Below are positions 6,050 through 21,653 of a stretch of DNA of 64,000 nt, one piece after another. Position 1 is the stretch's first letter; each line of letters starts with the position of its first letter. The translations under genes were made by a program, and so were the position numbers. The DNA comes from an uncultured Nitrospirales bacterium (lineage in GTDB: Bacteria; Nitrospirota; Nitrospiria; Nitrospirales; UBA8639), in contig OY282373.1 in NCBI GenBank assembly GCA_958295805.1, positions 2,831,499 to 2,895,498 of the forward strand, read 5' to 3'. The notes beneath the pieces were generated by a model. The model was not told the origin of the DNA. It made no database searches and saw only the letters and a list, made by a program, of their open reading frames with translations.

Positions 6050-7262
6050 TAGCGGAAGGGGACCTGTATCGGAAAGCAAGAATCCGGCGGTGTCCACTGC
6101 AAGTCCGGCGAGCGTGCCGGCCGGCTTTGAAAAACGCATTTTGTTGTGTGTGGCCGGTTTATCGCCGCAGGTGATTACCGAAACGTTCTATGTCTTGGCA
6201 ACACGAGACAAATTTCTCCCGACCGACGTTCATATCATCACCACTGCCGAAGGTGCCCACAGGGTGCGCCTGACCCTGCTTGAAGACGACCCGGAAGAAC
6301 AGCATTTTTATCGGCTCTGCGCCGATCTTGACATTGACCCGGTCGGCATCCGATTCGACACCGAAACCATCCACCAGATACCCGCGGGTGACAAAAACCC
6401 CTCGTCCGCACATCACGCAGAGGCAGGGCTGGATGACATTCGCAGTCTTGCCGACAATCAAGCCGCGGCCGATACCATCACCGCCATCGTGCGCGACCTG
6501 ACTGCCGACTCACAAGCCGCCATTCATGCCTCGATCGCCGGTGGCCGCAAGACCATGGGGTTCTACCTGGGCTATGCCATGAGTCTGTTCGGGCGAGAAC
6601 AGGATCGCCTGTCTCACGTGCTGATCTCACCGCCATTCGAGTCACATCCCCGATTTTACTACCCACCTAAAAAACCGAAAGTGCTGCGGGACAACAACAA
6701 ACGTCCCATCCACACCCGTCACGCCGAGATCACGCTGGCAGACATCCCCTTTGTACGACTACGCGGACATCTGGACGGCAGCATACTCGGCGAAGAAACC
6801 AGTTACTCGGAAACCGTCCGTCGGGCACAACGCAACGTCGATCCGCCGAAACTCATTCTTGACCGCGAGAACAAAATGATTCAGTGCGGGGATCACTCCA
6901 TGACCTTCAGCCCCAATCTTTTCGCCTTTTACGCCTGGGTTGCCCGGCGTCTGCTGGCAGACAATCCCGGCATACACTGGACCCAGGACAACGTCAGCAA
7001 AGAATACCTCGAAGAATACGTCCGCATTGTCGGGGAGTACAGCGCAGATTATGAGAATGCGTGCGTCAGTTTACGACATGGCATGGACAAGGATTTTATC
7101 GACCCGAAAGCAAGCAAAATCAACAAGCAGATTAAAAAAATGCTTGGCAAAGAACCAGCCCGACCCTATCTAATCAGTACGCTCGGCGTGATTCCGGAAT
7201 CGCGGTACCGTTTGAAAGGTTTGACCTTGAAAAAAGAACAAGTACGATTTCTGACAGAATGA
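6024..7262 (+). CDS. NE0113-family CRISPR-associated CARF protein
   Basis: About 412 residues. After a non-conserved leader of some 36 residues the protein starts like NE0113-family members (KRILLCVAGLSPQVITETFY), then TTAEGAHR, and the ligand-loop motif SIAGGRKTMGFYLGYAMSLFG (about 170-190), marking a CARF-type sensor of cyclic oligoadenylate. The C-terminal half (about 230-412) matches no domain I recognise; it ends near IPESRYRLKGLTL. Members have been linked to ring-nuclease or signal-sensing roles; which applies here is not visible. The start overlaps the cas6 stop; ATG 6024 and 6036 both fit, and GTG 6090 or 6114 would remove the atypical leader. The last 24 bases lie in a 44-bp repeat found again after hepT. 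Confidence 0.8.
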   Translation: MKTGMKPPDSGRGPVSESKNPAVSTASPASVPAGFEKRILLCVAGLSPQVITETFYVLATRDKFLPTDVHIITTAEGAHRVRLTLLEDDPEEQHFYRLCADLDIDPVGIRFDTETIHQIPAGDKNPSSAHHAEAGLDDIRSLADNQAAADTITAIVRDLTADSQAAIHASIAGGRKTMGFYLGYAMSLFGREQDRLSHVLISPPFESHPRFYYPPKKPKVLRDNNKRPIHTRHAEITLADIPFVRLRGHLDGSILGEETSYSETVRRAQRNVDPPKLILDRENKMIQCGDHSMTFSPNLFAFYAWVARRLLADNPGIHWTQDNVSKEYLEEYVRIVGEYSADYENACVSLRHGMDKDFIDPKASKINKQIKKMLGKEPARPYLISTLGVIPESRYRLKGLTLKKEQVRFLTE

Positions 7263-7282
7263 CGAGGACGGCAAGCTTGCCG
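7239..7282. repeat. 44-bp direct repeat, copy 1 (end of the NE0113-family gene)
   Basis: Runs from the last codons of the NE0113-family gene (ACGATTTCTGACAGAA) into CGGCAAGCTTGCCG. It matches 7883-7926 at 41 of 44 positions. The two copies flank mntA-hepT, so the module was probably inserted or duplicated with one gene edge. Confidence 0.85.
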
Positions 7283-7335
7283 AATGTAGAGAAGGCATTG
7301 ACGAACATCAACGCAATCAACGAGAGGTCATTGAC

Positions 7336-7620
7336 GTGCACCCATTGATAGAAAATCATCGTGCGGAGATACGATTTCTGACTGAACGTTACGGCATTGA
7401 AAATGTACGGGTATTCGGATCCATGGCCAGGGGAGATGCGGACGATGCCAGTGATGTCGATCTGCTGGTATCGCTTCCCGAAAATAAGAGTGGGCTCATC
7501 CTTGGCGGATGGCTTATGGATGTTCAATATCTGTTGCAGCGTCGTGTGGACGTGGTAACGGAACGCGGTCTGCATCACGCGCTCCGCGATCTCATACTGA
7601 ATGAGGCACAACCCTTATGA
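7336..7620 (+). CDS. mntA: MNT-type nucleotidyltransferase (MntA-like antitoxin)
   Basis: 94-residue minimal nucleotidyltransferase. It shows the GSx10DxD catalytic signature as GSMARGDADDASDVDLLV, followed by ILGGWLMDVQYLLQRRVDVV. In MntA/HepT systems the MNT partner AMPylates the HEPN toxin and neutralises it; that role is inferred from the overlapping hepT. The GTG start at 7336 has GAGAGG 9 bases upstream. The 4-base overlap with hepT implies translational coupling. It sits between the NE0113-family gene and cas10 in the same orientation and so may be read with the cas operon. The symbol is given by family resemblance. Confidence 0.85.
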   Translation: MHPLIENHRAEIRFLTERYGIENVRVFGSMARGDADDASDVDLLVSLPENKSGLILGGWLMDVQYLLQRRVDVVTERGLHHALRDLILNEAQPL

Positions 7621-7898
7621 AGTCGTCTGCGCCATCGGATAAGGTTTTGCTAGGACATATTCGCGAGTCTATTGAGCGAATTCGAGAGTACACTGGCAAC
7701 AATCAAGACGTTTTCTTCGATTCGCAAATCGTGCGGGATGCGGTCGTGCCCAATTTGCAAATTCTTGCCGAATCCACTCAGCGGCTCAGCGACTCGATCA
7801 AGGCCACTGAGCAACGTGTTCCCTGGCGGGAGATCGCAGGCTTTCGCACCGTGCTCGCGCACGGTTACTCAGGACTTGACCACAGGTACGATTTCTGA
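7617..7898 (+). CDS. hepT: HEPN-domain ribonuclease toxin (HepT-like), C-terminally truncated
   Basis: 93-residue HEPN protein, partner of the upstream MNT gene. The RX4HXY active-site motif is intact as RTVLAHGY near the C-terminus, with EIAGFR before it. HepT proteins usually continue about 20 residues after this motif; here the frame ends at LDHRYDF because a 44-bp sequence copied from the end of the NE0113-family gene follows. Whether the shortened protein still folds and is toxic is open. Starts with ATG overlapping the mntA stop. Confidence 0.83.
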   Translation: MKSSAPSDKVLLGHIRESIERIREYTGNNQDVFFDSQIVRDAVVPNLQILAESTQRLSDSIKATEQRVPWREIAGFRTVLAHGYSGLDHRYDF

Positions 7899-7926
7899 CA
7901 GAAGGACGAGGCCGGCAAGCTTGCCG
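7883..7926. repeat. 44-bp direct repeat, copy 2 (end of hepT)
   Basis: Second copy of 7239-7282. It supplies the last codons and stop of hepT and ends with the same CGGCAAGCTTGCCG palindrome. The two starts are 644 bases apart. Confidence 0.85.
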
Positions 7927-7991
7927 TTGGACAATTGGATCGAGAAATCGAGTAAACTCAAGAGGACTGAGAGAGGATTATCAAGCTGACC

Positions 7992-10562
7992 ATGGAACTG
8001 CATGACCACATTGTGTTTGGTGCTTTATTGCACGATATAGGTAAATTTTTCGAGCGGGCAAACCGGCTTGGTGAATATCGTGATGACGACAACCAAAAAC
8101 AACAAGATTGTCCATGGCAACGACGACAAGGTGGGTACTGGAGTCACCTGCACGTATTACACACCCGACGTTTTTGTGAGGAACTGTGCCGTATCGTTCC
8201 AATCTTACAACCACTATCAGAACAACACGATTCGCAAGCAGCAGATAACTGGATCAATATGGCTGCACATCATCATGTCGCCTCTACGAATATGGAACGC
8301 CTTCTTCAGGCGGCTGACCATTTTGCCAGTGCCGAACGTGAGCAGGGGAATTTTTATCAGCAAGGTATTCATCGACGTACCCGCCTGGAACCTATCCTTG
8401 AGCGCATCAATTTAGATGGTGTGAACAAAACCGCTGAGTTCCGTGTAAAGCTTCGGCCGTTATCGCCCAGCAGGGAAGATGTATTTCCACTGCGGACAAC
8501 TGAGTTTGAACCCTCTATGGAACCTGTCGGAGAAGACTCTATTTGGCTCAGTCCAACGTACTTATCAGACGATTATCAGAGACTTGCCGATGGTTTGCTG
8601 AATGCTATGGAAAACATGCCGAAATATGACCGCTTGACACCGGCTTCCTTGCGTTCATTCATGACGACGCTGTTGGCACAAATGGAACGTTTCCTGGTCA
8701 CCGTTCCGGCAGCAACAAACGTCAGACACCCGGACATATCTCTATACGATCATTTGCGCGTGACCGCCGCTATTGCAGAAGGATTATTCCTGCATCATCA
8801 GTTCCGTAACACGCTTGATCAGCCCGATACGTTCAGTGATAAAGCCACTTCAAAATGGCGTTTGGTCTGTGGCGATTTTTCCGGTATCCAGAATTTCATT
8901 TATAAGATTACCAGCAAAGGCGCTGCGAAAGGCTTACGAGGTCGATCCCTGTATATACAACTGCTATGTGACGGCGTTGCAGAACATTTATTACGGAAAC
9001 TCAAACTTTATCCTACTGCCCGCATTTATTCTTCTGGTGGCAAGTTTTACCTGCTTATACCCGACTGTCTGGAGCAATCATTAAAAGACGAAGTAGCGAC
9101 AATAAATGAGGCTCTGATTACGGAATTTCAAGGAGATGTTTTTCTCGGCATTGGTATCGCACCGGTATGTGGCAGAGATTTTGCCGGAGGCAATATGGGT
9201 AAATGCTGGAAAGCCGCAAATGACAACCTGATGCGTGACCGACAGCAGCGATTTCGTCCACTATTGGAAAATGACCCTCGTTTCTTTAATGCACAAAAAC
9301 TCGCGTCAGGCACTGCTTGTGGAGTCTGTGGTCGAGACGATGAGGGTGCTGGAATCAAACAATCAGATGATGAACCGATCTGCAAACAATGTGGTGATTT
9401 ACAACGATTAGGGCAAAAACTGACGGATGCAAAGGCCTTCTTCTGGATTTGGGAGACCGACAGGGATAATTTTAGGGAAAACGATTTACATATTCAGTTA
9501 CCCGGTACAAGTTGGCATATTCATGTTTTAGAAGGTCAGGATGACTTACCTGCAACCAGCAAGTTACGTTCACTGACAAACAGCTATTGGGAGAGCATTA
9601 ACCAAATCATTGATCCAATATCCAATGACAACGGTTATGCCAGCGGCTTTCGATTGCTTGGCAGGTGGAACCGTGACAAGGAGGCCGGAGATTGGGAATT
9701 TAATGATTTCGATGAAAACGCCACGGGTATCCAGCGCATGGGCGTATTACGTCTGGATGTCGATAATTTGGGTGAAATATTTATCCGAGGGCTTAAATTT
9801 CCAGGCGTGACGGGTAGAGAAGACGAAATGGGATCATTATCCAGGATAACGACCTTATCGCGCCAGTTACACCTGTTTTTTGCCGGTCACCTTATGGAGA
9901 TACTCAGAGGCTATCAACGCAGCCAAATTATTTATTCTGGCGGTGACGATATATTTCTCATCGGTTCCTGGGATGAGTTGCCGGAAGTCGCACATAAAAT
10001 TCGTCGTGAATTTCAACACTATTGCGCAGACAATCCAGTATTTACGCTTTCCGGTGGTCTCGTCATGGTTGATGGTAAATATCCTATATCACGTGCAGCA
10101 GACTTGGCCCGCGAAGACGAATTAAGGGCAAAAGCCTTGGACCGTAACAAACGTGAAAAAGATGCAATCTGTTTACTTGATACGGTGATCGGCTGGGAAG
10201 AATATCCTCGTGCCCTGAAGTTAAGAAAACAGATCGAGACGATTATCCAAAAAACCAAGACTCGGGCGATACTCGGCAGACTGCGGTCGGTTGTACTTGC
10301 AGTCGAAGAATTTCAACGCCTCAGTAATAAACGAAATTTGCAGGACGAAGAAATGCGTGAACTGTTACATTGGCAACAATGGCGCTGGCGGCTGATTTAC
10401 AACTTGAAACGCATGGCGCACCGTGCTCCAGAAATTAAAGAAGATTTGGACGAGTTAATCACAACCATTACGGAAAGCCGCACTGAATCAATCCGGCCTG
10501 TGATTGAATGGCTACAATTGCCCACTCGCTGGGCTGAATTTTTAACAAGGAGAACTAACTAA
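7992..10562 (+). CDS. csm1: Type III-A Cas10/Csm1 (HD nuclease and cOA synthase)
   Basis: Large subunit of the Csm effector complex; it cleaves ssDNA through its HD domain and makes cyclic oligoadenylates through its Palm domain when target RNA is bound. 856 residues, normal for Csm1. The N-terminal HD motif LLHDIGKF (H14-D15) and AAHHHV are intact. A four-Cys zinc motif follows (CGVCG about 443, CKQC about 466). The catalytic Palm motif YSGGDD is intact (GGDD 650-653), so signalling is predicted. C-terminal helical domain D4 follows. The stop overlaps the csm2 start by one base (TAATG). Base composition is more AT-rich than the flanking core genes, in keeping with transfer. Confidence 0.95.
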   Translation: MELHDHIVFGALLHDIGKFFERANRLGEYRDDDNQKQQDCPWQRRQGGYWSHLHVLHTRRFCEELCRIVPILQPLSEQHDSQAADNWINMAAHHHVASTNMERLLQAADHFASAEREQGNFYQQGIHRRTRLEPILERINLDGVNKTAEFRVKLRPLSPSREDVFPLRTTEFEPSMEPVGEDSIWLSPTYLSDDYQRLADGLLNAMENMPKYDRLTPASLRSFMTTLLAQMERFLVTVPAATNVRHPDISLYDHLRVTAAIAEGLFLHHQFRNTLDQPDTFSDKATSKWRLVCGDFSGIQNFIYKITSKGAAKGLRGRSLYIQLLCDGVAEHLLRKLKLYPTARIYSSGGKFYLLIPDCLEQSLKDEVATINEALITEFQGDVFLGIGIAPVCGRDFAGGNMGKCWKAANDNLMRDRQQRFRPLLENDPRFFNAQKLASGTACGVCGRDDEGAGIKQSDDEPICKQCGDLQRLGQKLTDAKAFFWIWETDRDNFRENDLHIQLPGTSWHIHVLEGQDDLPATSKLRSLTNSYWESINQIIDPISNDNGYASGFRLLGRWNRDKEAGDWEFNDFDENATGIQRMGVLRLDVDNLGEIFIRGLKFPGVTGREDEMGSLSRITTLSRQLHLFFAGHLMEILRGYQRSQIIYSGGDDIFLIGSWDELPEVAHKIRREFQHYCADNPVFTLSGGLVMVDGKYPISRAADLAREDELRAKALDRNKREKDAICLLDTVIGWEEYPRALKLRKQIETIIQKTKTRAILGRLRSVVLAVEEFQRLSNKRNLQDEEMRELLHWQQWRWRLIYNLKRMAHRAPEIKEDLDELITTITESRTESIRPVIEWLQLPTRWAEFLTRRTN

Positions 10563-10972
10563 TGCCGACACCAAATAGACCAATAATGCAATCTTCAACA
10601 CCACAACCTGAAGTAATCAAAGGCTACATTATCAAAAACGATACTGCTAAAGAAATGGTCCAATTTGCAGAGGAATTTGGCCGGAAATATAAAGAAGACA
10701 TTACTACCAGCCAAATACGGAATGCTTACGGGAGCATGAAAAAACTTGAAATGTCGGGTTGGCAAGGTAGCCGCACACAGCGCACACTACTTCTTCTCAA
10801 ACCCAGGTTGGCTTATGCCTCAGGCCGGAACCATCGTAACGAAGGGTTGAAAAAGCTAAGAGAGGTGATAGAGCACGCGATTGATGCTGTAACCGATGAA
10901 GAATCATTTCAGCGTTTTTGCCAATTCTTTGAAGCGATAGTCGCCTACCATAGAGCAGCGGGAGGGAAATAA
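10562..10972 (+). CDS. csm2: Type III-A small subunit Csm2
   Basis: 136 residues, almost all predicted helix, as in the Csm2 (Cas11) small subunits that line the inner filament of the Csm complex and contact the crRNA:target duplex. Family-type segments are TSQIRNAYGSMKKLEM and LLLLKPRLAYASGR. Its place between csm1 and csm3 confirms the call. It starts one base before the csm1 stop and ends two bases before the csm3 ATG, whose ribosome site (GGGAGG) lies in its last codons. The first 18 residues are Pro/Gln rich and may be disordered. Confidence 0.92.
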   Translation: MPTPNRPIMQSSTPQPEVIKGYIIKNDTAKEMVQFAEEFGRKYKEDITTSQIRNAYGSMKKLEMSGWQGSRTQRTLLLLKPRLAYASGRNHRNEGLKKLREVIEHAIDAVTDEESFQRFCQFFEAIVAYHRAAGGK

Positions 10973-10974
10973 CC

Positions 10975-11757
10975 ATGACCGACATCAAAAAAGTAACCAG
11001 CAAAATCTTTGTCCGGGGTAATTTGACAGCATTAACCGGTCTGCATGTCGGTGGTAATTCCGTTGGCATGGCCATAGGCGGTGCGGATTCCGTCGTCGTA
11101 CGCAATCCATTGACCAATGATCCGTATGTTCCAGGTTCGTCATTACGAGGCAAGATGCGAGCCTTACTCGAACGGGTACGAGGCGAGGAAAGCAGCAATA
11201 ACAGCGACGAAGGGGGATTCTCTTTAAGCAATAAGAACGAAGCCTTGGCAGGGAAAAAGCCAGATACATCATTAGGCAAGCTGTTTGGCGTTGCCGCTGA
11301 AGACTCAAAAGAACCAACACGTTTGATCGTGCGCGATGCCCTGTTGACAGAAGAAAGTAGAGAAAAGCTTCTGTCTGCGCCCAATGCCGATATGCCAATG
11401 ACTGAGGTCAAGACAGAGGTCTGGATTGATCGTATCACCTCTGCTGCTAATCCACGCCAAATTGAACGTGTACCAGCAGGTGCGGAGTTTACATTTGAAC
11501 TTGTCCTTACCTTAATTGAAGGCGATAACCACGAGCATTTTCTCAATCTACTGTTTGAGGGATTGCGTCTAGTCGAAGCGGATACACTGGGGGGTAGCGG
11601 TTCCCGTGGTTATGGGCAAGTCAAGTTTTTTGTCACTTCACTGACTCAACGGACCGCGGAACAATACAAATCAGGCAACAATGAGGAAAATTTATCTGGT
11701 TACGAGATACCTGATGAATTCAATTCATCTGTTGCAGAAGCCGAAACTGTTACCTGA
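10975..11757 (+). CDS. csm3: Type III-A RAMP protein Csm3 (target RNA nuclease backbone)
   Basis: 260-residue Cas7-type RAMP that forms the helical backbone of the Csm complex and cuts target RNA every 6 nt. N-terminal LTGLHVGG, then IGGADSVVVRNP with the predicted catalytic Asp38 retained, and PGSSLRGKMRALLE. The Gly-rich loop LGGSGSRGYGQVKF is near residue 200-213. The preceding GGGAGGG gives a good ribosome site. RNA cleavage should therefore be active. Confidence 0.94.
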   Translation: MTDIKKVTSKIFVRGNLTALTGLHVGGNSVGMAIGGADSVVVRNPLTNDPYVPGSSLRGKMRALLERVRGEESSNNSDEGGFSLSNKNEALAGKKPDTSLGKLFGVAAEDSKEPTRLIVRDALLTEESREKLLSAPNADMPMTEVKTEVWIDRITSAANPRQIERVPAGAEFTFELVLTLIEGDNHEHFLNLLFEGLRLVEADTLGGSGSRGYGQVKFFVTSLTQRTAEQYKSGNNEENLSGYEIPDEFNSSVAEAETVT

Positions 11758-11768
11758 AACAAACTGTT

Positions 11769-12755
11769 ATGGACTGCTATAAACTCAAATTTACAGCACC
11801 CTTTCACGTCGATAGTCGCGGCAATAATTTCTACGATGAATCCGAGGTCTTCATTCATTCGGATACGTTGAGTGCCGCGATTGTATCAACGTGGGCATTG
11901 TTGGAACCGAATGCTGCCACTGAACGGGCGGCATCTCCACCGTTTTTGCTCAGTTCCGCATTTCCCTATTTTCGGAGGACGTATTTTTTGCCTCGCCCGC
12001 TTGGGAGCACTGCACCGGCGTTATCCGATGAAAACTTACGCAGCTATAAAAGGCTTAAAAAGATTCAATGGTTGGCTTCCGAACTGTGGCCCGCCGTTGC
12101 GGCAGATGGCTGGCAAATAAAACTTGATGATGTCGACGTCGTTCAATCGACGTTGGCCCTACCCAAGGGAACTTGTCCACAAACAGAAAAATTATGGGCA
12201 CAAGAAGGGCGACCGAGACTGGCTACGGACCGTGCCAATGGAGCACCGCTGGAGGGGCAATTATTCAACTTTGAGCGTGTCCACTTCGACACGGAAGCCG
12301 GTCTGTACTTCCTGGCGCATTTTGGTGACGATAACGACAGAAAGGGGTTCGAAGGGGCGCTCAGCCTTCTCGGTGACAGTGGCATCGGCGCAGACCGTAG
12401 TAATGGCAACGGGTTTTTTCACTGGCAAAAAGCAGACGACTTTCCTGAACTACCGGCTACCGATACTGGTCTTGTTACGGCGTTATCGCTCATCAACCCC
12501 GCTCCTGAAGATTTTTCAGATACCTGGCTTGAAGGATCAAGCTACAACATAACCAGTCGTGGCGGATGGATTGCGCATCACGGTTTACGTCGATTGCGGC
12601 TACGCATGTTTACCGAAGGCAGCCAGTTTCGCCGATCGCTTGCCGGCCAAGTCGTTGAAGTCACACCAACCAATTTTCCTGAAGGGAGAACGTCACCTTA
12701 CCCAATCTACCGCGACGGTAGAGGGTTTTTTATAGGAACAGGAAGCGTGTCATGA
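11769..12755 (+). CDS. csm4: Type III-A RAMP protein Csm4
   Basis: 328-residue Cas5-type RAMP that caps the Csm backbone, contacts Cas10 and holds the crRNA 5' tag. Family features: short N-terminal strand MDCYKLKFTAPFHV, the HSDTLSAAIVSTWALL segment typical of Csm4, and the Gly-rich stretch DSGIGADRSNGNGFF near residue 205. Csm4 ends and Csm5 begins in a 4-base ATGA overlap, so the two are coupled. Confidence 0.92.
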   Translation: MDCYKLKFTAPFHVDSRGNNFYDESEVFIHSDTLSAAIVSTWALLEPNAATERAASPPFLLSSAFPYFRRTYFLPRPLGSTAPALSDENLRSYKRLKKIQWLASELWPAVAADGWQIKLDDVDVVQSTLALPKGTCPQTEKLWAQEGRPRLATDRANGAPLEGQLFNFERVHFDTEAGLYFLAHFGDDNDRKGFEGALSLLGDSGIGADRSNGNGFFHWQKADDFPELPATDTGLVTALSLINPAPEDFSDTWLEGSSYNITSRGGWIAHHGLRRLRLRMFTEGSQFRRSLAGQVVEVTPTNFPEGRTSPYPIYRDGRGFFIGTGSVS

Positions 12756-14167
12756 AGGGGCAAACGGAAACGATCAAACTTGCCGTTGAAATACTGACAC
12801 CGGTACATGTCGGATCAGGACAAGAATTACATCGTGAACTCGATTACATAGAACAACGAGGACAGGTGTTTGTTGTCGACCAGAACCAAACGTTTAACGA
12901 CATCGCATCAGGGAATGCAGAACTTGATACGTTGCAGCAAGCAAATTCCAAGTTGAGCGATTTAGTCAAGCTCGCGGATGCTTATCATGGCTATTTACTG
13001 CCCGGTTTATCGAAAACACCAATGCCAGAACGTATCAGGGCTTGTATGAAAGATGCCATGTTTCTTCCTTATCTGCCGGGTAGTTCCATAAAAGGTGCCA
13101 TTCGCACTGCCCTGTTGGCTGAATGGCTACGCAGCAACCCGAGTGAAGCGACAAAACGTCTTCCGCAAGGAAATAGATCACCCAAAATGGCTGCAACTGA
13201 CATCACGAAATATGCCTTTGGCCCTGACCCAAACAAGGATCTCCTGCGTGCCTTGCACGTTGGCGATGCCAACTTCCAAACCGGTGATTTGCGCCTTGCT
13301 GACGTTCGTTGGCTCAACATCTCCAAAACCAACGACAAAGAGTCCGCGAAATGGCGCAATATGTCCAACCGACGAAACGAGAACAGGTGGCAGGATGCCA
13401 GCGGTATTTACGCGGAGGCTTTAGCACCAGACGCAATCGCGGTTATGGCGCTGCAATGGGATCAATTCTTGTTGAACGATCTAGGGCATTGGGATGCTCC
13501 TAAACATGGTCTTAAGTTACTGCCGAGGGACTCTGCCGGACTCTTTACAAAACTCAACAAGCACGCCGAGTATATTCTCCGACAAGAGATAGAATTTTTT
13601 CAGCGTTACAGGCAAGAAACAATTGTTCAACGATGCAAGACATTACTCCAAAGCGTTCAACAAGCGGATAATGCTGCTTATCTGAGATTGGCTTGGGGCA
13701 GCGGTTGGCGGGGAATGACGGGCGATTGGCAAGATGCCGAAACACAAAAAGAAATGCGTAGTCTTTATAAGCTTGGAAAACGCGAATCTGACATCTTTCC
13801 AAAAACCAGAAGATTAGCCGTACAAGGAGATCCCTGTTTGCCATTGGGCTGGGTAAAACTCTCACCTTGGTCAAATGAGGCAGAAAAACGTATCGGAAGT
13901 CAAAAGACGAGTCAGATACACATCCCGATCAGCCCATGGGTTGAAGAACAATTGGTGGCCATTCAAAGACAGCACCACACCTCAATCGATGAAGCCCTGC
14001 GTGGTCAGCCGCTCGCAAAATCATGGCAAGCCATTGAAAACCGTGACCTGAAACAGACGGCTTTAGCAGACATCCGGGCGCGTTGGCAGGAAAAGGGGTG
14101 GTGGGATAACCCACCACCCGGCAAGTCGATGAAAAAAGCATTGCAAATTTATAAAGGAGAAAATTGA
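12752..14167 (+). CDS. csm5: Type III-A RAMP protein Csm5
   Basis: 471-residue RAMP at the opposite end of the Csm filament, linked to crRNA 3' maturation through host nucleases. Family features are the N-terminal LTPVHVGSGQ, the FLPYLPGSSIKGAIRTALL segment (about 108-125), a long helical middle, and a Gly/Trp-rich stretch LRLAWGSGWRGMTGDW near 309-324 as in other Csm5. Start overlaps csm4. After its stop there are about 150 bases before the next gene, possibly the end of the csm transcript; no clear terminator is seen. Confidence 0.92.
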   Translation: MKGQTETIKLAVEILTPVHVGSGQELHRELDYIEQRGQVFVVDQNQTFNDIASGNAELDTLQQANSKLSDLVKLADAYHGYLLPGLSKTPMPERIRACMKDAMFLPYLPGSSIKGAIRTALLAEWLRSNPSEATKRLPQGNRSPKMAATDITKYAFGPDPNKDLLRALHVGDANFQTGDLRLADVRWLNISKTNDKESAKWRNMSNRRNENRWQDASGIYAEALAPDAIAVMALQWDQFLLNDLGHWDAPKHGLKLLPRDSAGLFTKLNKHAEYILRQEIEFFQRYRQETIVQRCKTLLQSVQQADNAAYLRLAWGSGWRGMTGDWQDAETQKEMRSLYKLGKRESDIFPKTRRLAVQGDPCLPLGWVKLSPWSNEAEKRIGSQKTSQIHIPISPWVEEQLVAIQRQHHTSIDEALRGQPLAKSWQAIENRDLKQTALADIRARWQEKGWWDNPPPGKSMKKALQIYKGEN

Positions 14168-14320
14168 TACGCGGCGGATCAGACTTGGTATAAATTTTCA
14201 ACGGCACCAGCGGCACCATGTGACACTTGGAAAATGCCGCAGTTTGGAAACAAGACTCTTTCGTCAAAACCATTTATATGTTTTAGCAATGACGACAAGA
14301 AACACCATTGAGGCGACGGC

Positions 14321-14752
14321 ATGACGGAAGAAAAAGAACGTTGGCAATATCGGTTCGATAATTTTAAGAGAGCCTACTTTCTATTACAGGAAGCAGCAGA
14401 AAGTCATCAAGAGGGTCTGCTCAATCAATTAGCGAAAGAGGGGATGATTCAACGATTTGAGTATTGTACGGAATTAGCCTGGAAAACGATCAAAGATTAT
14501 TTGGAAAGCCAGAACGTGGTCTTTGAGCAAATAACTCCCAGAGCTGTCTTAAAAGAAGCCGTCGCGGCAAAACTCATATCGAATGGGGAAGATTGGATGA
14601 GCGCGTTAGACGCACGCAATAAAATGAGTCACACGTATGACTTCAAGCAATTCGACGCCGTGATTGAAAAAATAGAAGGAACGTACCTCAACTGTTTTGG
14701 TGAGCTGTATGAAAAACTGTCTGGAGCTTATAGAGGCGCCGGTGATGATTGA
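14321..14752 (+). CDS. HEPN protein of the HI0074 / nucleotidyltransferase-substrate-binding family
   Basis: 143 residues, all helical. Matches the HI0074-type family by MIQRFEYCTELAWKTIKDYL, ITPRAVLKEAV and SALDARNKMSHTYD. The RNKMSHTY stretch is an RX4HXY HEPN active-site motif, as in HepT toxins. It is paired with the next gene, a minimal nucleotidyltransferase overlapping its stop by 8 bases, so a HepT/MntA-type toxin-antitoxin module is likely. Order is HEPN then MNT, the reverse of 7336-7898. It lies between csm5 and csx16 in cas orientation. Confidence 0.85.
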   Translation: MTEEKERWQYRFDNFKRAYFLLQEAAESHQEGLLNQLAKEGMIQRFEYCTELAWKTIKDYLESQNVVFEQITPRAVLKEAVAAKLISNGEDWMSALDARNKMSHTYDFKQFDAVIEKIEGTYLNCFGELYEKLSGAYRGAGDD

Positions 14753-15050
14753 TCACGGACTGAGCGAGGATCAGTTACGGGTAATCAAGGAAACCCTTGA
14801 GAACTTCGCGCCTGCGTTTGAGTCCGTCTCTGTGTTTGGCTCCAGGGCAACGGGGACGTACAAGAGTTATTCCGATATCGATCTAGTGCTCTACGGCGAC
14901 CTTGATGAAGAGACCATTGACCGTTTATGGACCTGTTTTTCTGAAAGCAGCCTGCCTTATAAGGTCGACGTGACGGCCTATAACCTTGTGACGCATCCAC
15001 CGTTGAAAGAGCATATCGATCGGTGTGCCAAGCCGTTGGTCTTAGAATAA
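14745..15050 (+). CDS. MNT-type nucleotidyltransferase (HI0073-like)
   Basis: 101 residues. Catalytic signature GSRATGTYKSYSDIDLVLYG (GSx10DxD), then KVDVTAYNLV with the third acidic residue. ATG 14745 is chosen because GAGG (14733-14736) sits 8 bases upstream and overlap with the HEPN stop is typical; the frame is open further upstream to 14697. Expected to modify or neutralise the HEPN partner by AMP transfer (inference from MntA/HepT). Confidence 0.84.
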   Translation: MIDHGLSEDQLRVIKETLENFAPAFESVSVFGSRATGTYKSYSDIDLVLYGDLDEETIDRLWTCFSESSLPYKVDVTAYNLVTHPPLKEHIDRCAKPLVLE

Positions 15051-15119
15051 CCGAGAAGAAATTTGTATGACGTTGCTTGGCCGCTCCTGATGCAGACGTC
15101 CCGCCGATGCACTCCTGAT

Positions 15120-15428
15120 ATGAGTACGATTTTCATTACTCGTCATCCTGGCGCGAGAGCCTGGGCGGAGCAGGAAGGGTTTTCAATGGATGCGATGGTT
15201 GAGCATCTGGAACTTTCAGCAATTGTTCCCGGTGATACGGTACTGGGCACACTGCCAGTTCACGTGGCGGCAGCGGTTTGCGAGCGCGGCGCACGGTATT
15301 TTCACTTATCCATGGATATCCCGGCCACGCGCCGTGGCACGGAGTTAAGCGCGGAAGACATGCGGACATTCGGAGCACGGCTGGAAGAATACGTGATAAC
15401 GAAGCTCATCAAGAGAGAGTCCGTCTAA
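15120..15428 (+). CDS. csx16: Csx16 ring nuclease
   Basis: About 102 residues. The N-terminus MSTIFITRHPGARAWAEQEG is diagnostic of the Csx16 (VVA1548) family; later GDTVLGTLPVHVAAAVCERGARYFHLSMDIP and RGTELSAEDM also match. Csx16 proteins degrade cyclic tetra-adenylate, switching off type III signalling. The start at 15120 is placed where the family begins; no strong Shine-Dalgarno is visible. It is convergent with the CARF-RelE gene, separated by 75 bases, which fits an off-switch paired with a cA4-driven effector. Confidence 0.88.
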   Translation: MSTIFITRHPGARAWAEQEGFSMDAMVEHLELSAIVPGDTVLGTLPVHVAAAVCERGARYFHLSMDIPATRRGTELSAEDMRTFGARLEEYVITKLIKRESV

Positions 15429-15503: not shown

Positions 15504-16601
15504 TTAATGCAGAGCTTTATCAAGCACCTCTAGCGTAAACACACCGCATTCAAGACGTCCATACATCCTTTTGGCATCCTGGTCGGCCCAAGCGTCACAC
15601 TCATGCGTATAGTTTTTGACCTTACCTTTCACTGGCTTGAAGTCCAGGGACGCCGGATTGTCCCCACGCTCAAGATAACGCGCAAGCTGATCGATACGCG
15701 TGTTCACGTGCTCCATACGGTCAGAAGGAAGTTTTTCAACACTTTCAGCAAACCTCTCACCGTAGATGATTGTTTGACTTGGAGAAGGCCAGAGTTTTTC
15801 GCCATAAATCTTTTTATGCGTTCGCTCCCAGACCAAATCTCCCCACGGCGACAAACTGACGTCATTGTCAAGACAAAGCAATAAAGTCTCTGGAAGAGCA
15901 TCAAGCTGGCACTGTTCATCAAGACCATTTGCCAAACGCCTGAAGACGTGAAGATGTCGGCGTATCACGTCGTCAGCATCCAGCTTGATTGGCAACCTTG
16001 GTAGACGCAACAATTCGTTACCGGATTCAAAGACGTAGATGGCTTCATCAGCATAAAACGTCGCCAGCGTTTGCAGAAAACCCTGAATGCTTTTGAACCC
16101 ACCCGTGAGATTGAAAACGATATAGGCGTGTTCCCGACAGGGTTCTATCGTCTCCTCACACCATTTCACCAAATCAGACAACGCGCTTTGAAAGGTGAGA
16201 AGGTCCTCCGTCCGCAGATCCTTCGGCTGGTAAAGTTGCACGGAGGAAAGACCAAGACGTTCCAGTGTTTCCTTTATCAGTTCGCCGGTTTGTCTTCCCA
16301 GCCAAGTATCCGTACACAGCAACCAATGTTGGTCGTTTGCCGCCCTATCGAATTGGCCGTCATACAGTTTGAACAGCGCATTCAGTTCTGCCGACATGCG
16401 TGTCATGTGGCGTGCTTCGGCTTTTCGTAATTCCGATTGTGTGGAGTCAAGCCGGTTTTGCAGAGTGGCAAGGTCCTCATGGCTTATCGCTTGTTCGTTT
16501 CGGGTGTTGGCATGACGAGTGACCAAAGCACGTTCATCGTCCGTTGCAGGATTCGTGAGGAGGCTGGTTCCACAGAGTGACAGCACAAAATACGGTTTCA
16601 T
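15504..16601 (-). CDS. CARF-RelE fusion effector (Cami1-like)
   Basis: About 365 residues. The N-terminal CARF domain of the APE2256/Csm6-like kind has LSLCGTSLLTN (8-17), HWLLCTDTWLGRQTGE and the ligand loop IVFNLTGGFKSIQGF (161-175), predicted to bind cyclic oligoadenylate. The last 70 or so residues look like a RelE/HigB toxin fold: RIDQLARYLERGDNPASLDF, KPVKGKVKNYTHECDAW, then RMYGRLECGVFTLEVL and a C-terminal His. CARF-RelE proteins such as Cami1 are cA4-activated, ribosome-dependent mRNA interferases. No HEPN domain is seen. Start 16601 has GGAGGGG 6 bases upstream, better than the ATG at 16670. A Phd-type antitoxin gene lies 40 bases upstream on the same strand. Domain assignment is by eye. 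Confidence 0.72.
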   Translation of the reverse strand: MKPYFVLSLCGTSLLTNPATDDERALVTRHANTRNEQAISHEDLATLQNRLDSTQSELRKAEARHMTRMSAELNALFKLYDGQFDRAANDQHWLLCTDTWLGRQTGELIKETLERLGLSSVQLYQPKDLRTEDLLTFQSALSDLVKWCEETIEPCREHAYIVFNLTGGFKSIQGFLQTLATFYADEAIYVFESGNELLRLPRLPIKLDADDVIRRHLHVFRRLANGLDEQCQLDALPETLLLCLDNDVSLSPWGDLVWERTHKKIYGEKLWPSPSQTIIYGERFAESVEKLPSDRMEHVNTRIDQLARYLERGDNPASLDFKPVKGKVKNYTHECDAWADQDAKRMYGRLECGVFTLEVLDKALH

Positions 16602-16641
16602 CGGATCCCCTCCATTTTCAACGTGCCGCCGTTGGTCTTCT

Positions 16642-16860
16642 CTAGGCTCTGACTGCCAACGGATGCCCAATGTCGTCTTTCATCCCGAGACGGCGACGGG
16701 CTTCGTCCAGTTTGCCGAAATCAATCCCGCCACGCTTGCGGAAGCGCACGAGTTCCACCGCCGGCTCTCCATGTTTCATGATCACAACACGCTCACCGCC
16801 TTGGGCAGCGGCGACAAGTTCGGAAAGGCGTGCTTTTACCTGACACAGGGCAAACTCCAT
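16642..16860 (-). CDS. Phd/YefM-type antitoxin
   Basis: 72 residues with the classic prevent-host-death N-terminus: QVKARLSELVAAAQGGERVVI followed by MKHGEPAVELV. The C-terminus (DEARRRLGMKDDIGHPLAVRA) is the part that would bind a toxin. Good ribosome site AGGAG 8 bases before the ATG. Normally such genes neutralise a RelE, Doc or VapC toxin encoded next door and autorepress the operon. Here the next gene downstream encodes the CARF-RelE fusion and no PIN or Doc gene is present, so the CARF-RelE protein is the candidate partner. An orphaned VapC-type antitoxin is the alternative. Confidence 0.83.
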   Translation of the reverse strand: MEFALCQVKARLSELVAAAQGGERVVIMKHGEPAVELVRFRKRGGIDFGKLDEARRRLGMKDDIGHPLAVRA

Positions 16861-17051
16861 AAAAACTCTCCTGATGGTTCAAAGAATCGGAGTATGGATC
16901 CTCTCGTGTCTACGGTCAAGACTATGGTGGACCTACAATAAAAAATATGGAGACACCCATCGATCGTTCACCGTCAAGGTTCATCCGCGTACCACCCACG
17001 GCAAGCTTGCCATTCCTGCACGGCACGTTCCAACGTCGGTACCTTATCAGA

Positions 17052-17333
17052 ATGAATCGCCGACTCTACCTTGCCGCGTATGACATCAGCAGCCCTCGTC
17101 GCATGCGGGCCGCCCTGTCGTTGTTGAAGGGAATCGCCAGCGGGTGCCAGAAATCCGTCTTCGAGTGTTTTCTGACCGGGGGTGAACGCCGTGAACTGGT
17201 CAAGGCCATGATCGGGATCATCAATCCGGCTGAAGACCGGTTTCTGCTGCTGCCGTTGACCGCTACGGATGAAATCAAGACCTTGGGCAAGGGTGTCGCC
17301 CCCGGAGATCACTCATATTGGTACATCGGTTGA
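17052..17333 (+). CDS. cas2: Cas2 (first copy)
   Basis: 93-residue Cas2: RRLYLAAYDISSPRRMRAALSLL with the conserved Asp in AYDI (D11), then QKSVFECFLTGGERRELVKAM and IINPAEDRFLLLPL. Cas2 dimers bridge two Cas1 dimers in the spacer-integration complex. The start is set at the family N-terminus; the frame is open upstream. It ends 5 bases before cas1. The 190-base gap to the divergent antitoxin gene holds a GGCAAGCTTGCC palindrome (17000-17011) and presumably both promoters. Confidence 0.9.
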   Translation: MNRRLYLAAYDISSPRRMRAALSLLKGIASGCQKSVFECFLTGGERRELVKAMIGIINPAEDRFLLLPLTATDEIKTLGKGVAPGDHSYWYIG

Positions 17334-17338
17334 CCACG

Positions 17339-18304
17339 ATGCTGACGTTATTCATTGATCGCAAAGACCTGCAACTCGAACTGGACGGAAAACGGCTGTT
17401 GGTCCGGCGGCCTGATGCAGGGACACAGGGTCTGCCGCTCACGATGCTGGATCGGGTCGTCATCCAGAGTCAGGTGACGTTGGACAGCCGCCTGCTGGGC
17501 ACGCTGGGGCAGCATGGCATCGGCGTCACCATCATGCACGGGCGAGCCGGGCAACGACGGTTGCAGATGCTGGGGCCGGGACATAATGATGCACGACGCC
17601 GACTGGCCCAATATCAGCTTTGGCAGAATGCGGAACGACGCCTGACCTGGAGTCGGCAACTGGTGCAGGCGAAAATCACGGCGCAACAAAACTTCTTACA
17701 ATCCGCGCTGGCACGCAGACCCGATCTTCGCTATCCGCTCAGCAAGGCGATGACCGGGCTGGCTTCTCTTGGGCCGTCCCTGAACGGGGCCATGAGCATG
17801 AATGGGTTGCGCGGTCTGGAGGGTTCGGCATCGGCCATGTACTTTACCGGATATCAGCACCTGTTTGCCGACAGTCTGGGCTTCACCGGTCGGAACCGTC
17901 GCCCACCACGCGACCCGGTGAACGCCTGCCTGTCGCTGACGTATACCCTGATCCACAATGAAGCGGTACGCGCCTGTCACGGCGCGGGACTTGATCCGCT
18001 GCTGGGGTTTTACCATGAGCCGGCCTATGGCCGACAATCCCTGGCCTGTGACGTGATTGAGTTGTTACGCCCGCGGATTGATCGTTGGGTCTGGGGTATC
18101 TTTCGGCAACGCCTGTTGAGCGGCAACCACTTCAGCCGCGAAGAACCACGCTGCCTGCTCACCAAAAGCGGTCGTCAAACGTTTTTTGAACAGTATGAAG
18201 CCTGTGCGGGGCCGTGGCGACGGTATCTGCGTCTTCACGGCTATCAAATGGCACACGCCCTGCTGGACGTGGCCCCTGATTTACCTGAGGTACGTGACGC
18301 ATGA
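17339..18304 (+). CDS. cas1: Cas1 integrase
   Basis: 321 residues. The N-terminal beta domain LTLFIDRKDLQLELDGKRLLVR matches Cas1. The catalytic domain carries E161 (RGLEGSASAMYF), H226 (FYHEPAYGRQSLACDVIELLRP) and nearby acidic residues D238/E241, the metal-binding triad expected for spacer integration. No reverse transcriptase or Cas6 fusion is present. Start ATG 17339, just after the cas2 stop; TTG 17318 is in frame but less likely. It is followed by a second cas2 after 39 bases and then the array, so the adaptation module reads toward the CRISPR. Confidence 0.95.
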   Translation: MLTLFIDRKDLQLELDGKRLLVRRPDAGTQGLPLTMLDRVVIQSQVTLDSRLLGTLGQHGIGVTIMHGRAGQRRLQMLGPGHNDARRRLAQYQLWQNAERRLTWSRQLVQAKITAQQNFLQSALARRPDLRYPLSKAMTGLASLGPSLNGAMSMNGLRGLEGSASAMYFTGYQHLFADSLGFTGRNRRPPRDPVNACLSLTYTLIHNEAVRACHGAGLDPLLGFYHEPAYGRQSLACDVIELLRPRIDRWVWGIFRQRLLSGNHFSREEPRCLLTKSGRQTFFEQYEACAGPWRRYLRLHGYQMAHALLDVAPDLPEVRDA

Positions 18305-18343
18305 CCCCTCGTTTCATCTGCACTGTGTTCCTGTGGTGTTTCC

Positions 18344-18691
18344 ATGAGTCGGCAACGCTATCTTATTACCTACGATATTGCAGATCCCAAGCGACTTGGA
18401 CGGGTTGCCAAATATATGGGGCAGCACGCTTGTCGGGTCCAGCGTTCCGTCTTCGTCGTGGCGATGGGACGACCCTGCCTGCATCACGTCCTGGTCGATC
18501 TGGAAACGATGATTGATCCGAAACAAGACGACGTTCGGGCCTATCCCGTCTCTCCGACGGGCAACGTAACACTGTTAGGACGGCAACTCCTTGCCGTCAA
18601 CACGTTACTGGGAGAAAACGGCCAGAGTCGATTGGTCCTGATCCAAGACCCTACCGACAGAGAATATTTGTCGGATGAGGCTGACGAGTGA
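18344..18691 (+). CDS. cas2: Cas2 (second, divergent copy)
   Basis: 115 residues. RQRYLITYDIADPKRLGRVAKYM with the conserved Asp in TYDI, then RVQRSVFVVAMG and DDVRAYPVSPTGNVTLLG identify Cas2. It differs strongly from the copy before cas1 and has a C-terminal extension ending LSDEADE. Both copies keep the Asp and lack frameshifts. It is the last gene before the array leader. Confidence 0.9.
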   Translation: MSRQRYLITYDIADPKRLGRVAKYMGQHACRVQRSVFVVAMGRPCLHHVLVDLETMIDPKQDDVRAYPVSPTGNVTLLGRQLLAVNTLLGENGQSRLVLIQDPTDREYLSDEADE

Positions 18692-18849
18692 TTGAAAAAA
18701 TCGTATACTTCCGGGGCCAATCCGTGTTTCTTCGTGTGAGAACCCCATGCACGACGGGATTATGAATATCACCTTCCTCTCGCGTCCCGGAGATTTCCGA
18801 CAACCCTCCCTGTAAGGTATTGTAAAAAAACATTTTTTCTCACAAAGGA
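18692..18849. promoter_or_regulatory. CRISPR leader
   Basis: 158 bases between the second cas2 and the first repeat, with no gene. AT-rich toward the array, with a run of A7 then T6 (18824-18838) about 12 bases before repeat 1. Leader assignment rests on the cas side of the array having perfect repeats and the far end a degenerate one. The promoter for pre-crRNA is expected here; no confident -35/-10 is called. Confidence 0.7.
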
Positions 18850-19818
18850 GTTTGAAATGAAGACCTGACGAAGAAGGGATTAAGACCACGTTCCGCTGTT
18901 GCAATCGTCCATTGTCGATTGTTTGAAATGAAGACCTGACGAAGAAGGGATTAAGACACGATGGATGTGTATCTTTCAACGGCTGTTATCCAGTTTGAAA
19001 TGAAGACCTGACGAAGAAGGGATTAAGACTGTCCCGCCCCCCTTCTAATCAGATTTATCGTAAGTTTGAAATGAAGACCTGACGAAGAAGGGATTAAGAC
19101 TATGACCACCCCCACATTTTCGACTGATTGATTGTCGTTTGAAATGAAGACCTGACGAAGAAGGGATTAAGACGAAACCACCTGTTTGAATTGCGGATGG
19201 TCTTTTGGTTTGAAATGAAGACCTGACGAAGAAGGGATTAAGACGATTCTCTCTCTCACTGATTTCATGGGCTCTCCTTGTTTGAAATGAAGACCTGACG
19301 AAGAAGGGATTAAGACACCTGAAGGCCGTGCTTACAAACCAGGTTTTTGTGTTTGAAATGAAGACCTGACGAAGAAGGGATTAAGACTCTGAATACCCGT
19401 ACTCTTTCAGACGTTTTGTGTGGTTTGAAATGAAGACCTGACGAAGAAGGGATTAAGACAGTCAGGCCGACGACCAGTCAGACCGACGACCCTGGTTTGA
19501 AATGAAGACCTGACGAAGAAGGGATTAAGACAATCGCAATGCCTACAATAAGCCGCGTCTGGGACGTTTGAAATGAAGACCTGACGAAGAAGGGATTAAG
19601 ACACTATAGATTCTGTGGCAATGACGTTCATGCTAAGTTTGAAATGAAGACCTGACGAAGAAGGGATTAAGACCTGAATCCATCGACAACATGAGCAGAC
19701 GGCACCATGTTTGAAATGAAGACCTGACGAAGAAGGGATTAAGACTTCAAGCAGTTTGCGAATTTGCCGAACTTTATCCACGTTTGAAATGAAGACCTGA
19801 CGAAGAAGGGATGCAGAC
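18850..19818 (+). CRISPR. CRISPR array, 14 repeats and 13 spacers
   Basis: Repeats are 37 bp, beginning GTTTGAAATGAAGACC and ending GAAGAAGGGATTAAGAC, at 18850, 18921, 18993, 19064, 19137, 19208, 19280, 19351, 19423, 19495, 19566, 19637, 19709 and 19782. The first 13 are identical by eye; the last ends GGATGCAGAC instead of GGATTAAGAC, marking the distal end. Spacers are 34-36 bp. The forward strand is taken as the crRNA strand because cas1-cas2 and the leader lie upstream, and the 3' end ATTAAGAC resembles the ATTGAAAC tag of many type III crRNAs. Spacer 9 (19460-19494) contains two near-identical 16-bp units. Decayed copies of the repeat lie beyond the nuclease gene at 20693-21065. Confidence 0.98.
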
Positions 19819-20100
19819 AGATACTTGCATTCAGACGTAGAGGCAGTCCCAAACGAACTCAGAATTATGAGTCAAAGTCGGAAACATCCACTGCACCCAG
19901 CGATGTTTGAAGGCCTCAACAGCGTGAAAGACACTCCAACGCGTTTCTTCTTAACAAATATGGGGGCCGTGAGTACGACACTCACCTTATGGAAGAAATT
20001 GTGAAATAGGGTTCAGTTGCGTTTCAGGAACTGGTCATAGGCTCTACTGGTGAAGCAGTGGCGAGGTCGGAGGCACTCCGACGTGTACGGCGCACGCGCT

Positions 20101-20628
20101 ATGCCTGTGAAAGTTGTGCGCGTATTCGACGGGGATACGGTGCTGGTGCAGGGGCCGGAGTTCTTCAGCCGGCCGTTCTGTGTGCGCCTCTACGGCATTG
20201 ACGCGCCGGAATCCGCTCAGTCGTTCGGCGACGAGTCCCGAGAGGCACTCGCTCGACTGGTACGACGGCAGTCGCTGTCGCTGGATGTCTTCGCTCACGA
20301 CCGCTACGGGCGAGCCGTGGGCCTGCTCTACCCCCGCGGCGACGACCCGCGGGAGTCCGTCAACGCGGCGATGGTGCGCGGGGGATGGGCCTACTGCTAC
20401 CACCGCGGCGGGCGCTACAGTCACGGACTGGACCAGGCGCAGCGCGCGGCGCAGGACGCCCGCTTGGGCGTCTGGTCCAGTCCAGGCGAGGAGCGCCCCT
20501 GGTGCTACCGACGGCGCGTCACGGAGGAGCGGGCGGCCTCCGGTGGCTGCGCCCGCGTGCTGTTGGTGATCGGTTTCGTGGTCGTAGCGGCACTCACGCT
20601 CCTCTATATCCTCGCCAGCCGATTTTAG
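20101..20628 (+). CDS. Thermonuclease-like (SNase) nuclease with C-terminal membrane anchor
   Basis: About 175 residues. Staphylococcal-nuclease fold: VRVFDGDT (metal-site Asp), VRLYGIDAPES with Arg29 and Glu37, FAHDRYGRAVG with the second Arg, and MVRGGWAYCYH. A hydrophobic helix of about 20 residues (about 153-172, CARVLLVIGFVVVAAL) ends the protein, so it is probably tail-anchored rather than secreted. It is visibly more GC-rich than the cas genes and array beside it, suggesting separate origin. It lies between the distal repeat of the array and decayed CRISPR repeats. ATG 20101 is set at the domain start; GTG 20050 is possible. A perfect 7-bp stem (GTCGGAG GCA CTCCGAC, 20066-20082) lies upstream. 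The stretch 19819-20100 shows no other gene. Confidence 0.8.
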   Translation: MPVKVVRVFDGDTVLVQGPEFFSRPFCVRLYGIDAPESAQSFGDESREALARLVRRQSLSLDVFAHDRYGRAVGLLYPRGDDPRESVNAAMVRGGWAYCYHRGGRYSHGLDQAQRAAQDARLGVWSSPGEERPWCYRRRVTEERAASGGCARVLLVIGFVVVAALTLLYILASRF

Positions 20629-20692
20629 TTGCTGAGTCATCAACTAGACTGGTGAAGTTTCCCACTCGTCGAGTTGTGATTGGGGCACCACG

Positions 20693-20729
20693 GTTTGAAA
20701 TGAAGACCTGACAAAGAAGGGATTACGTC
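20693..20729 (+). repeat. Decayed solitary CRISPR repeat
   Basis: Same 37-bp repeat as the array with few changes: it reads CTGACAAAGAAGGG for CTGACGAAGAAGGG and ends GATTACGTC for GATTAAGAC. It lies 875 bases past the last array repeat. Confidence 0.85.
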
Positions 20730-20840
20730 TCGGCGATCCCGGAACATTTTGGGATCCGAAATTTTTCGTCCTGGGTGAGTGTGCGCGGATGACGACCGCC
20801 CCGTGGCGTCCCCCTTCTTTCACATTGACTACCCCCCTGG

Positions 20841-20870
20841 TCGAGATTCTTCGCTTCGCTCAGAATGACA
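20841..20870. repeat. Dispersed repeat fragment (CTTCGCTTCGCTCAGAATGACA type)
   Basis: TCGAGATTCTTCGCTTCGCTCAGAATGACA lies within the gene-free stretch 20629-21245; written as 20-base parts: TCGAGATTCTTCGCTTCGCT then CAGAATGACA. A shorter relative is at 63066-63090. Such sequences are dispersed in many genomes. The rest of 20629-21245 holds only the decayed CRISPR repeats and the upstream region of the bS22-like gene. Confidence 0.5.
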
Positions 20871-20956
20871 ATGTGGGGTTGGCCACGGCGTTGGATGCAG
20901 GCCAACGGCCGGCATCGTTCTCTCCTGCGGATGCGGGCCGAACGACCGGCAGCCGC

Positions 20957-21065
20957 GTTTGCAATGAAGACCCAACGAAGAAGGGATGAAGACATCGTAG
21001 GGCGCGATCTCATCGCGCCTATCCCAGAGTTTGAAATGAAGACCCGACGAAGAAAGGATTATGAC
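20957..21065 (+). CRISPR. Two decayed CRISPR repeats around one fossil spacer
   Basis: Repeats at 20957-20993 and 21029-21065 resemble the array repeat with several substitutions each (GTTTGCAATGAAGACCCAAC and ending AAAGGATTATGAC). Their 72-bp pitch equals one repeat-spacer unit of the active array. The 35-bp spacer between them (20994-21028) holds a perfect inverted repeat GGCGCGAT CTC ATCGCGCC. No longer likely to be processed. Confidence 0.85.
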
Positions 21066-21245
21066 CGGTTAAATCTTGATTGAATCCGTATTACAGGGAT
21101 TGCGATCTCGCATTTTCTTGACACTTCTTGAGACGCTATGGTACGTCTGAAACTTCCTACGCCTTGGGGTAGCCGCTCTCTTTGGTGGGAAAATATCCCG
21201 GGAGAGCACCCGTCCTTGCCTTGGTGAAGAAGAAAAGGAGTGTGA

Positions 21246-21341
21246 ATGGCGAGTGTCGTCAAAAAGCGACGCAAAAAAATGCGGAAGCACAAGCATAAAA
21301 AGCTGCGCAGACGCATGAAATTTGCCCGTCGGCGGAACTAG
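21246..21341 (+). CDS. bS22-like / AURKAIP1-COX24-domain small ribosomal protein
   Basis: 31 residues, starting MASVVKKRRKKMRKHKHKK and ending FARRRN, almost wholly Lys/Arg/His. It matches the very short COX24-domain proteins found as bS22 in the small ribosomal subunit of some bacteria, where they pack against 16S rRNA. Strong ribosome site AAGGAG 5 bases before ATG 21246. Stands alone, with no ribosomal operon next to it. Easily missed by gene callers because of length. Confidence 0.85.
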   Translation: MASVVKKRRKKMRKHKHKKLRRRMKFARRRN

Positions 21342-21653
21342 GATTCGCCATTTCAGCACCAGGTGGAGGAGGAGGCATCTGGGAAAACGAACCCTTCGAG
21401 GCTTAGGGAACCCCTTCAAGGCACTTCGAGGCTCAGGGGAACCTCAGGGCAGGCGAAAACTGACTGAGGGACGCCCCCAGGCCTCGGCACGGTGTTGATG
21501 CCGGCGGTGCATCATCAGGGCTGTGACCCGTTCAATGGCGAAGTTGGCATAACCCTCCCCCCATTGCCTCTCGAACCCGCGACCGTTCATGTCTCCATTG
21601 TGCAACGCCCGTCCTCCATGCCGTGAACTGACGGCGAAAACCTTCGCCTGCCC
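21342..21653. other. Gene-free stretch with short GC-rich direct repeats
   Basis: 312 bases between the bS22-like and exporter genes. Contains two near-copies of TTCGAGGCTYAGGGRAACC (about 21393 and 21427) and further AGGCAC/CAGGGC variants. No RNA gene is recognised. The exporter promoter should lie here but I cannot place it. Confidence 0.4.

Follow-up and report, generated by a model that had tools for sequence, protein, structure and literature searches.

The DNA that follows the live type III-A CRISPR array of an uncultured Nitrospirales bacterium is probably the decaying leader-distal tail of that array, parts of which have been replaced, with a Chloroflexota-type SNase gene among the arrivals. 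Three diverged repeats trace the former extent of the array in the window (the whole stretch of 64,000 nucleotides that was analysed), and the nuclease gene that precedes them is of foreign origin and has kept an intact frame and its catalytic residues. The CRISPR-Cas locus leading up to the tail is laid out as follows:

4958 to 14167, plus strand: type III-A effector genes cas6, an NE0113-type CARF protein, cas10/csm1, csm2, csm3, csm4 and csm5 (Pfam and PADLOC matches), with a small nucleotidyltransferase pair inside the block at 7336-7898
14219 to 15053, plus strand: HI0074/MntA-type HEPN-nucleotidyltransferase block, a slot resident
15063 to 15428, plus strand: csx16
15504 to 16670, minus strand: CARF-RelE/Csm6-like effector
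16672 to 16924, minus strand: Phd/YefM-like antitoxin block, a slot resident in four congeners (Pfam score slightly below the cut-off)
16947 to 18691, plus strand: adaptation genes cas2, cas1 and cas2
18692 to 18849, plus strand: array leader region
18850 to 19818, plus strand: live CRISPR array, 14 repeats of 37 nt and 13 spacers of 34-36 nt

Regular repeats, unique spacers of guide length and the nearby cas1, cas2, cas6 and cas10-csm2-5 genes identify a CRISPR array that belongs to a type III-A system. Thirteen of the repeats are identical, and the terminal copy (19782-19818) carries 2 mismatches. At E 0.05, the 13 live spacers match nothing in the own genome beyond the array and the fossil repeats. 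Array and tail together gave no match in phages and one record in plasmids, from a Methylocaldum plasmid that carries a related repeat array; Rfam returned no match at the gathering threshold. The cas1 gene is flanked by two different cas2 genes (16947-17333 and 18344-18691), an arrangement also found in the congener G009. Between 14219 and 16924, residents shared with congeners (the HI0074/MntA block, whose DNA is 83% identical in G009 and G013, and the Phd-like antitoxin) are mixed with the CRISPR accessory genes csx16 and CARF-RelE, a layout that looks as if CRISPR parts had been inserted around toxin-antitoxin genes.

Beyond the last repeat of the live array, the features of the tail are:

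19819 to 20045, no strand assigned: 227 bp of DNA between the live array and the direct repeat, 46% GC
20046 to 20055, plus strand: left copy of the 10-bp direct repeat ACTGGTGAAG, at a GC step
20101 to 20628, plus strand: SNase (PF00565) gene of Chloroflexota type with a C-terminal transmembrane segment, 68.6% GC
20648 to 20657, plus strand: right copy of ACTGGTGAAG
20693 to 20729, plus strand: fossil repeat 1, 3 mismatches
20730 to 20956, no strand assigned: 227 bp of non-array DNA between fossils 1 and 2, 62% GC
20957 to 20993, plus strand: fossil repeat 2, 4 mismatches
20994 to 21028, plus strand: fossil spacer of 35 nt with a copy of a dispersed palindromic element
21029 to 21065, plus strand: fossil repeat 3, the last trace of the array, 3 mismatches
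21107 to 21341, plus strand: conserved promoter and bS22-like small gene, the right flank common to 12 congeners

The initial annotation had read the repeats at 20693, 20957 and 21029 as eroded copies of the array repeat, the last two still at the exact 72-bp pitch, and both readings hold. Fossils 2 and 3 also have the substitution T17>C in common, and it is only between these two that the pitch has been retained. At up to 3 mismatches the repeat pattern occurs at 16 places in the complete 2.90-Mb genome, all of them at this locus, against none for a reversed-pattern control; loosening to 10 mismatches within the window added no further copy (17 in all). The 37-nt repeat at up to 3 mismatches is absent from 47 other genomes of the family, and a looser pattern recovered related repeats in only two congeners, G009 and G007, across 196 genomes of the order. 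Local alignment for hidden eroded repeats in 19819-20692, 20730-20956 and 21066-21653 scored no better than shuffles, and a repeat-like stretch at the block's left edge was equalled by 266 of 300 shuffles. The fossils have the repeat of the live array, on the same strand and at its pitch, and that repeat lies nowhere else in the genome.

That these fossils mark where the array originally ended is best supported by comparing the same chromosomal slot in congeners. Twelve of the 13 congeners retain the bS22 flank, and 41 bp separate it from the end of the last fossil repeat. In four congeners the antitoxin block (window 16672-16924) ends approximately 20, 47, 77 and 185 bp from the bS22 promoter, and in G009 and G013 the HI0074/MntA block (window 14219-15053) adjoins that promoter, the distance to the aligned right flank being about 7 bp in G013. 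The cas6-csm5 genes of 4958-14167 are missing at the equivalent slot of congener loci, and tblastn of the window cas6, cas10, csm, cas1, cas2 and SNase against 12 congener slot loci, two of them partial (G004 at a contig end, G002 with no matching left flank), gave no match. The block comprising cas2-cas1-cas2, array, SNase and fossils occupies a slot that is otherwise short in congeners, a comparison that does not separate arrival of the block in this genome from its loss in the others.

Order, pitch, the shared T17>C, the absence of the repeat elsewhere in the genome and the closeness of the last fossil to the conserved flank support the fossils as the old leader-distal end of the live array. 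Because the congener slot is short or filled with other genes and the last fossil reaches so near its right flank, the earlier estimate that the array once extended to about 21.07 kb (position 21065) is well supported. A separate origin of the fossils, as a relic array that from the outset stood next to a live array built on the same repeat, with the SNase in ordinary intergenic DNA between the two, is quite improbable. The gap of 874 bp would suit such an arrangement, as would the degenerate terminal live repeat at 19782, a state common in terminal repeats (PMC5491264); however, neither a leader nor any cas gene was found to precede the fossils, live array and fossils have the same orientation, and between them they take up a single slot in which congeners have almost nothing.

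The slot of G009 also holds a solitary repeat-like sequence beside its HI0074/MntA block (locus L164, G009:C118, about 17774-17807, minus strand). It has 6 mismatches in 37 positions and a local score of 26 against a shuffle maximum of 16, and G013 carries a more diverged stretch homologous to it. This sequence may be a relic, which would favour loss of the block in congeners. Elsewhere in the G009 genome there is a related type III-A locus with a related repeat (L304 on G009:C4 and L305 on G009:C38), its cas6 being 74% and its cas10 26% identical to those of the window. On its two contig ends this closest comparator shows no SNase or fossil tail, the array itself falling in an assembly gap. 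The initial annotation had proposed a comparison with close strains lacking the nuclease and a search for an uninterrupted array; the same array in uninterrupted form was not found among 48 genomes of the family.

The tail appears to have been altered gradually rather than split once. It contains at least two non-array stretches, of 874 bp and 227 bp. The second separates fossils 1 and 2 and includes an element of about 28 bp (20843-20870) with many copies in the own genome, and the tail has therefore been rebuilt more than once. Short dispersed elements at 20843-20870 and 21412-21455 both have many copies in this genome and often neighbour each other at other sites. The 227 bp at 19819-20045 hold no recognisable repeat remnant and gave no family match, and the 227 bp and 64 bp that flank the nuclease returned no match. 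The 227 bp that precede the GC-rich block and the equally long stretch from fossil 1 to fossil 2 have no explanation, so more than one event is needed.

The initial annotation proposed instead that the insertion of a foreign nuclease gene, bounded by the 10-bp direct repeat at 20046 and 20648, had split the array. In its most explicit form, a mobile cassette spanning 20046-20647 (about 602 bp) entered an intact array and left ACTGGTGAAG as a target-site duplication. One copy does sit at the left GC step and the other just beyond the gene, a GC-rich block fills 20055-20602, and shuffling the segment 1000 times gave a 10-mer repeat that flanks the ORF just 13 times. Even so, 183 of the 1000 shuffles contained some 10-mer direct repeat whose copies were 300 or more apart, so that the direct repeat is suggestive but could be due to chance. 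The right copy of ACTGGTGAAG also falls beyond the 2-unit support interval (20553-20624) of the GC change point. No transposase or terminal inverted repeats that would mark an insertion sequence or transposon were found bounding the nuclease, the longest inverted match between the flanks being 6 bp. Moreover, if the cassette is removed, the repeats at 19782 and 20693 remain 272 bp apart, which is not one spacer. The foreign nature of the gene stands, while a single clean split of an intact array is unlikely, and gradual decay with several arrivals is favoured over it.

The same annotation had placed a GC-rich SNase gene with a C-terminal anchor between the live array and the fossils, and the gene is as described. 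Its product matches PF00565 with E 1.3e-18 and a score above the domain cut-off, and the intact frame at 20101-20628 encodes 175 residues consisting of the SNase domain, a basic stretch and a C-terminal hydrophobic segment (19-residue hydropathy 2.99). ATG 20101 is the likely start, since Chloroflexota homologues align there, and the GTG at 20050 given in the ORF list is less likely. Its composition departs from that of the window, as the proposed check of GC and codon bias revealed: GC is 0.686 and GC3 0.824, versus 0.545 ± 0.054 and 0.600 ± 0.098 in 34 long window ORFs, and 20055-20602 is the best GC-rich segment by change point.

The nearest relatives of the SNase by sequence are six Chloroflexota genes (L059-L064), with 45-54% identity. 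In a tree of 121 rows, the window protein is nested in a clade of seven whose other six members are all Chloroflexota (100/100), and it is sister to L059 (99/98). This tree rests on 132 columns, its bootstrap had not settled, it kept 121 of 128 sequences after short or identical ones were dropped, and its label 'Nitrospirota' for the relatives of the window is an assumption. Homologues were drawn from 32 of 80 viral loci, all 80 genome-contig loci, 19 relatives and L002, of which 130 of 132 gave a match. A C-terminal anchor without an N-terminal hydrophobic segment is present in 6 of these 130, the same six Chloroflexota genes, whereas 85 have an N-terminal segment. Clade and anchor topology place the window protein in this C-anchored Chloroflexota subfamily. 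Composition, tree position and topology make it well supported that the gene is foreign and was transferred from Chloroflexota, directly or via a carrier.

Other sources were considered for this gene. An origin native to the genus was rejected, as congener matches are 28-35% identical and the tree places the window protein elsewhere; the other SNase that this genome encodes shares only about 30% identity with it. Phage cargo was likewise rejected, with 4 of 50,697 phage records matching at 31-39% identity. The viral-contig match of highest identity, L177, reaches 47% over 102 residues only.

The active-site residues of staphylococcal nuclease (R35, D40, E43 and R87) align with Arg, Asp, Glu and Arg in the window protein, and the position of T41 is occupied by Ala. 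From these residues and the positive charges before the anchor, the protein is predicted to be catalytically active, to depend on Ca2+ and to be held at the inner membrane face. Most likely it works alone and not as a CRISPR effector. Recruitment as a type III-A accessory effector, co-transcribed with the pre-crRNA, would fit the orientation of the gene, its intact frame and active site, and the position of the sole promoter-like site of 18650-21300, a weak match at the leader (18681-18709; 1 found versus 1.4 expected). Yet the protein has no CARF or other sensor domain, and the homologous type III-A locus of G009 is without SNase on the contigs read. All 179 SNase homologue loci scanned were free of CRISPR-like arrays, which means that this nuclease does not as a rule accompany CRISPR, and such recruitment is very improbable. 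One CRISPR-like signal, at L163, was discarded as a short-period, lysine-rich coding repeat.

The spacer that survives between fossils 2 and 3 contains CGTAGGGCGCGATCTCATCGCGCC, a member of a palindromic family. This palindrome occurs at 31 own-genome places within 3 mismatches; a two-variant pattern within 2 mismatches finds 53 own-genome places, versus 4 places in 3 of 13 congeners, and the arms covary between copies. The palindromic core has no match in viral contigs. Because it contains an element found some 53 times in the genome, the fossil spacer was probably self-matching, although at any one own-genome place only 24-27 of its 35 nt match and no full-length copy was seen. In the Cas9 system of Enterococcus faecalis, degenerate terminal repeats inactivate the neighbouring spacer (PMC5491264). 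By analogy, the fossil guide at 20994-21028, flanked by degenerate repeats, is probably silent. The self-match has a more speculative reading, in which selection eroded the repeats to stop self-attack, and the tail thereby became a safe landing place where foreign DNA, the membrane nuclease included, could settle with no harm to immunity. Taken furthest, this reading has the relic of two repeats still producing a guide that targets the element family. We regard this as a long shot.

The most probable history begins with a type III-A CRISPR-Cas block that entered, or persisted in, a variable chromosomal slot flanked by conserved genes on both sides. The array of this block extended from a leader near 18.85 kb to roughly 21.07 kb. 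Its leader-distal part then probably ceased to pay its way and decayed: repeats mutated, spacers were lost, and foreign or repetitive DNA replaced parts of the tail. One arrival was the C-anchored SNase gene, now at 20101-20628 in the orientation of the array, which may have entered after the tail was already weakly used, by illegitimate recombination or on an element that left no other trace. As this concerns one nuclease in one genome, the order of events cannot be shown.

Array splitting by an insertion sequence or a MITE is already established (PMC7820667; PMC3119063). In Mycobacterium tuberculosis, a type III-A array is split by IS6110, and the ancestral single array was inferred from joined ends and relatives (PMC7820667). 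Here, too, one type III-A array is broken in two by inserted DNA. The M. tuberculosis case, however, offers a recognisable insertion sequence with transposase, a 3-bp duplication and uninterrupted relatives, in contrast to a nuclease gene, no mobility gene and an eroded tail. The residual array of Haloquadratum walsbyi HBSQ001, with a MITE in a spacer, resembles the present one in that non-autonomous DNA was inserted in a decaying array, but its cas genes are lost (PMC3119063), whereas here the insert is a coding gene and cas is complete. The Chloroflexota (Dehalococcoidia/SAR202) SNases have the same domain, the same C-terminal anchor without a signal peptide and the best tree placement, but their loci show no CRISPR-like array within the DNA read. 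Like the minimal CRISPRs of CreA, 20957-21065 consists of two degenerate repeats around a guide-length sequence that matches chromosomal DNA; CreA is a component of type I systems, where it keeps a neighbouring toxin repressed (PMC8501985), while the neighbour here is type III-A and the match is a dispersed palindrome.

Within the literature collection searched, no report of an SNase gene inside a CRISPR array was found. What sets this locus apart is an intact, foreign, membrane-anchored nuclease without a mobility gene in an array in advanced decay; new as well is a surviving fossil spacer that carries a genome-dispersed palindromic element. The locus is a record of how an array perishes at its old end: repeats erode, spacers are lost, and repetitive DNA and foreign coding DNA take their place. 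The foreign gene can be traced to another phylum and is not a transposon. The probably self-matching fossil spacer provides a testable link between autoimmunity and repeat decay.
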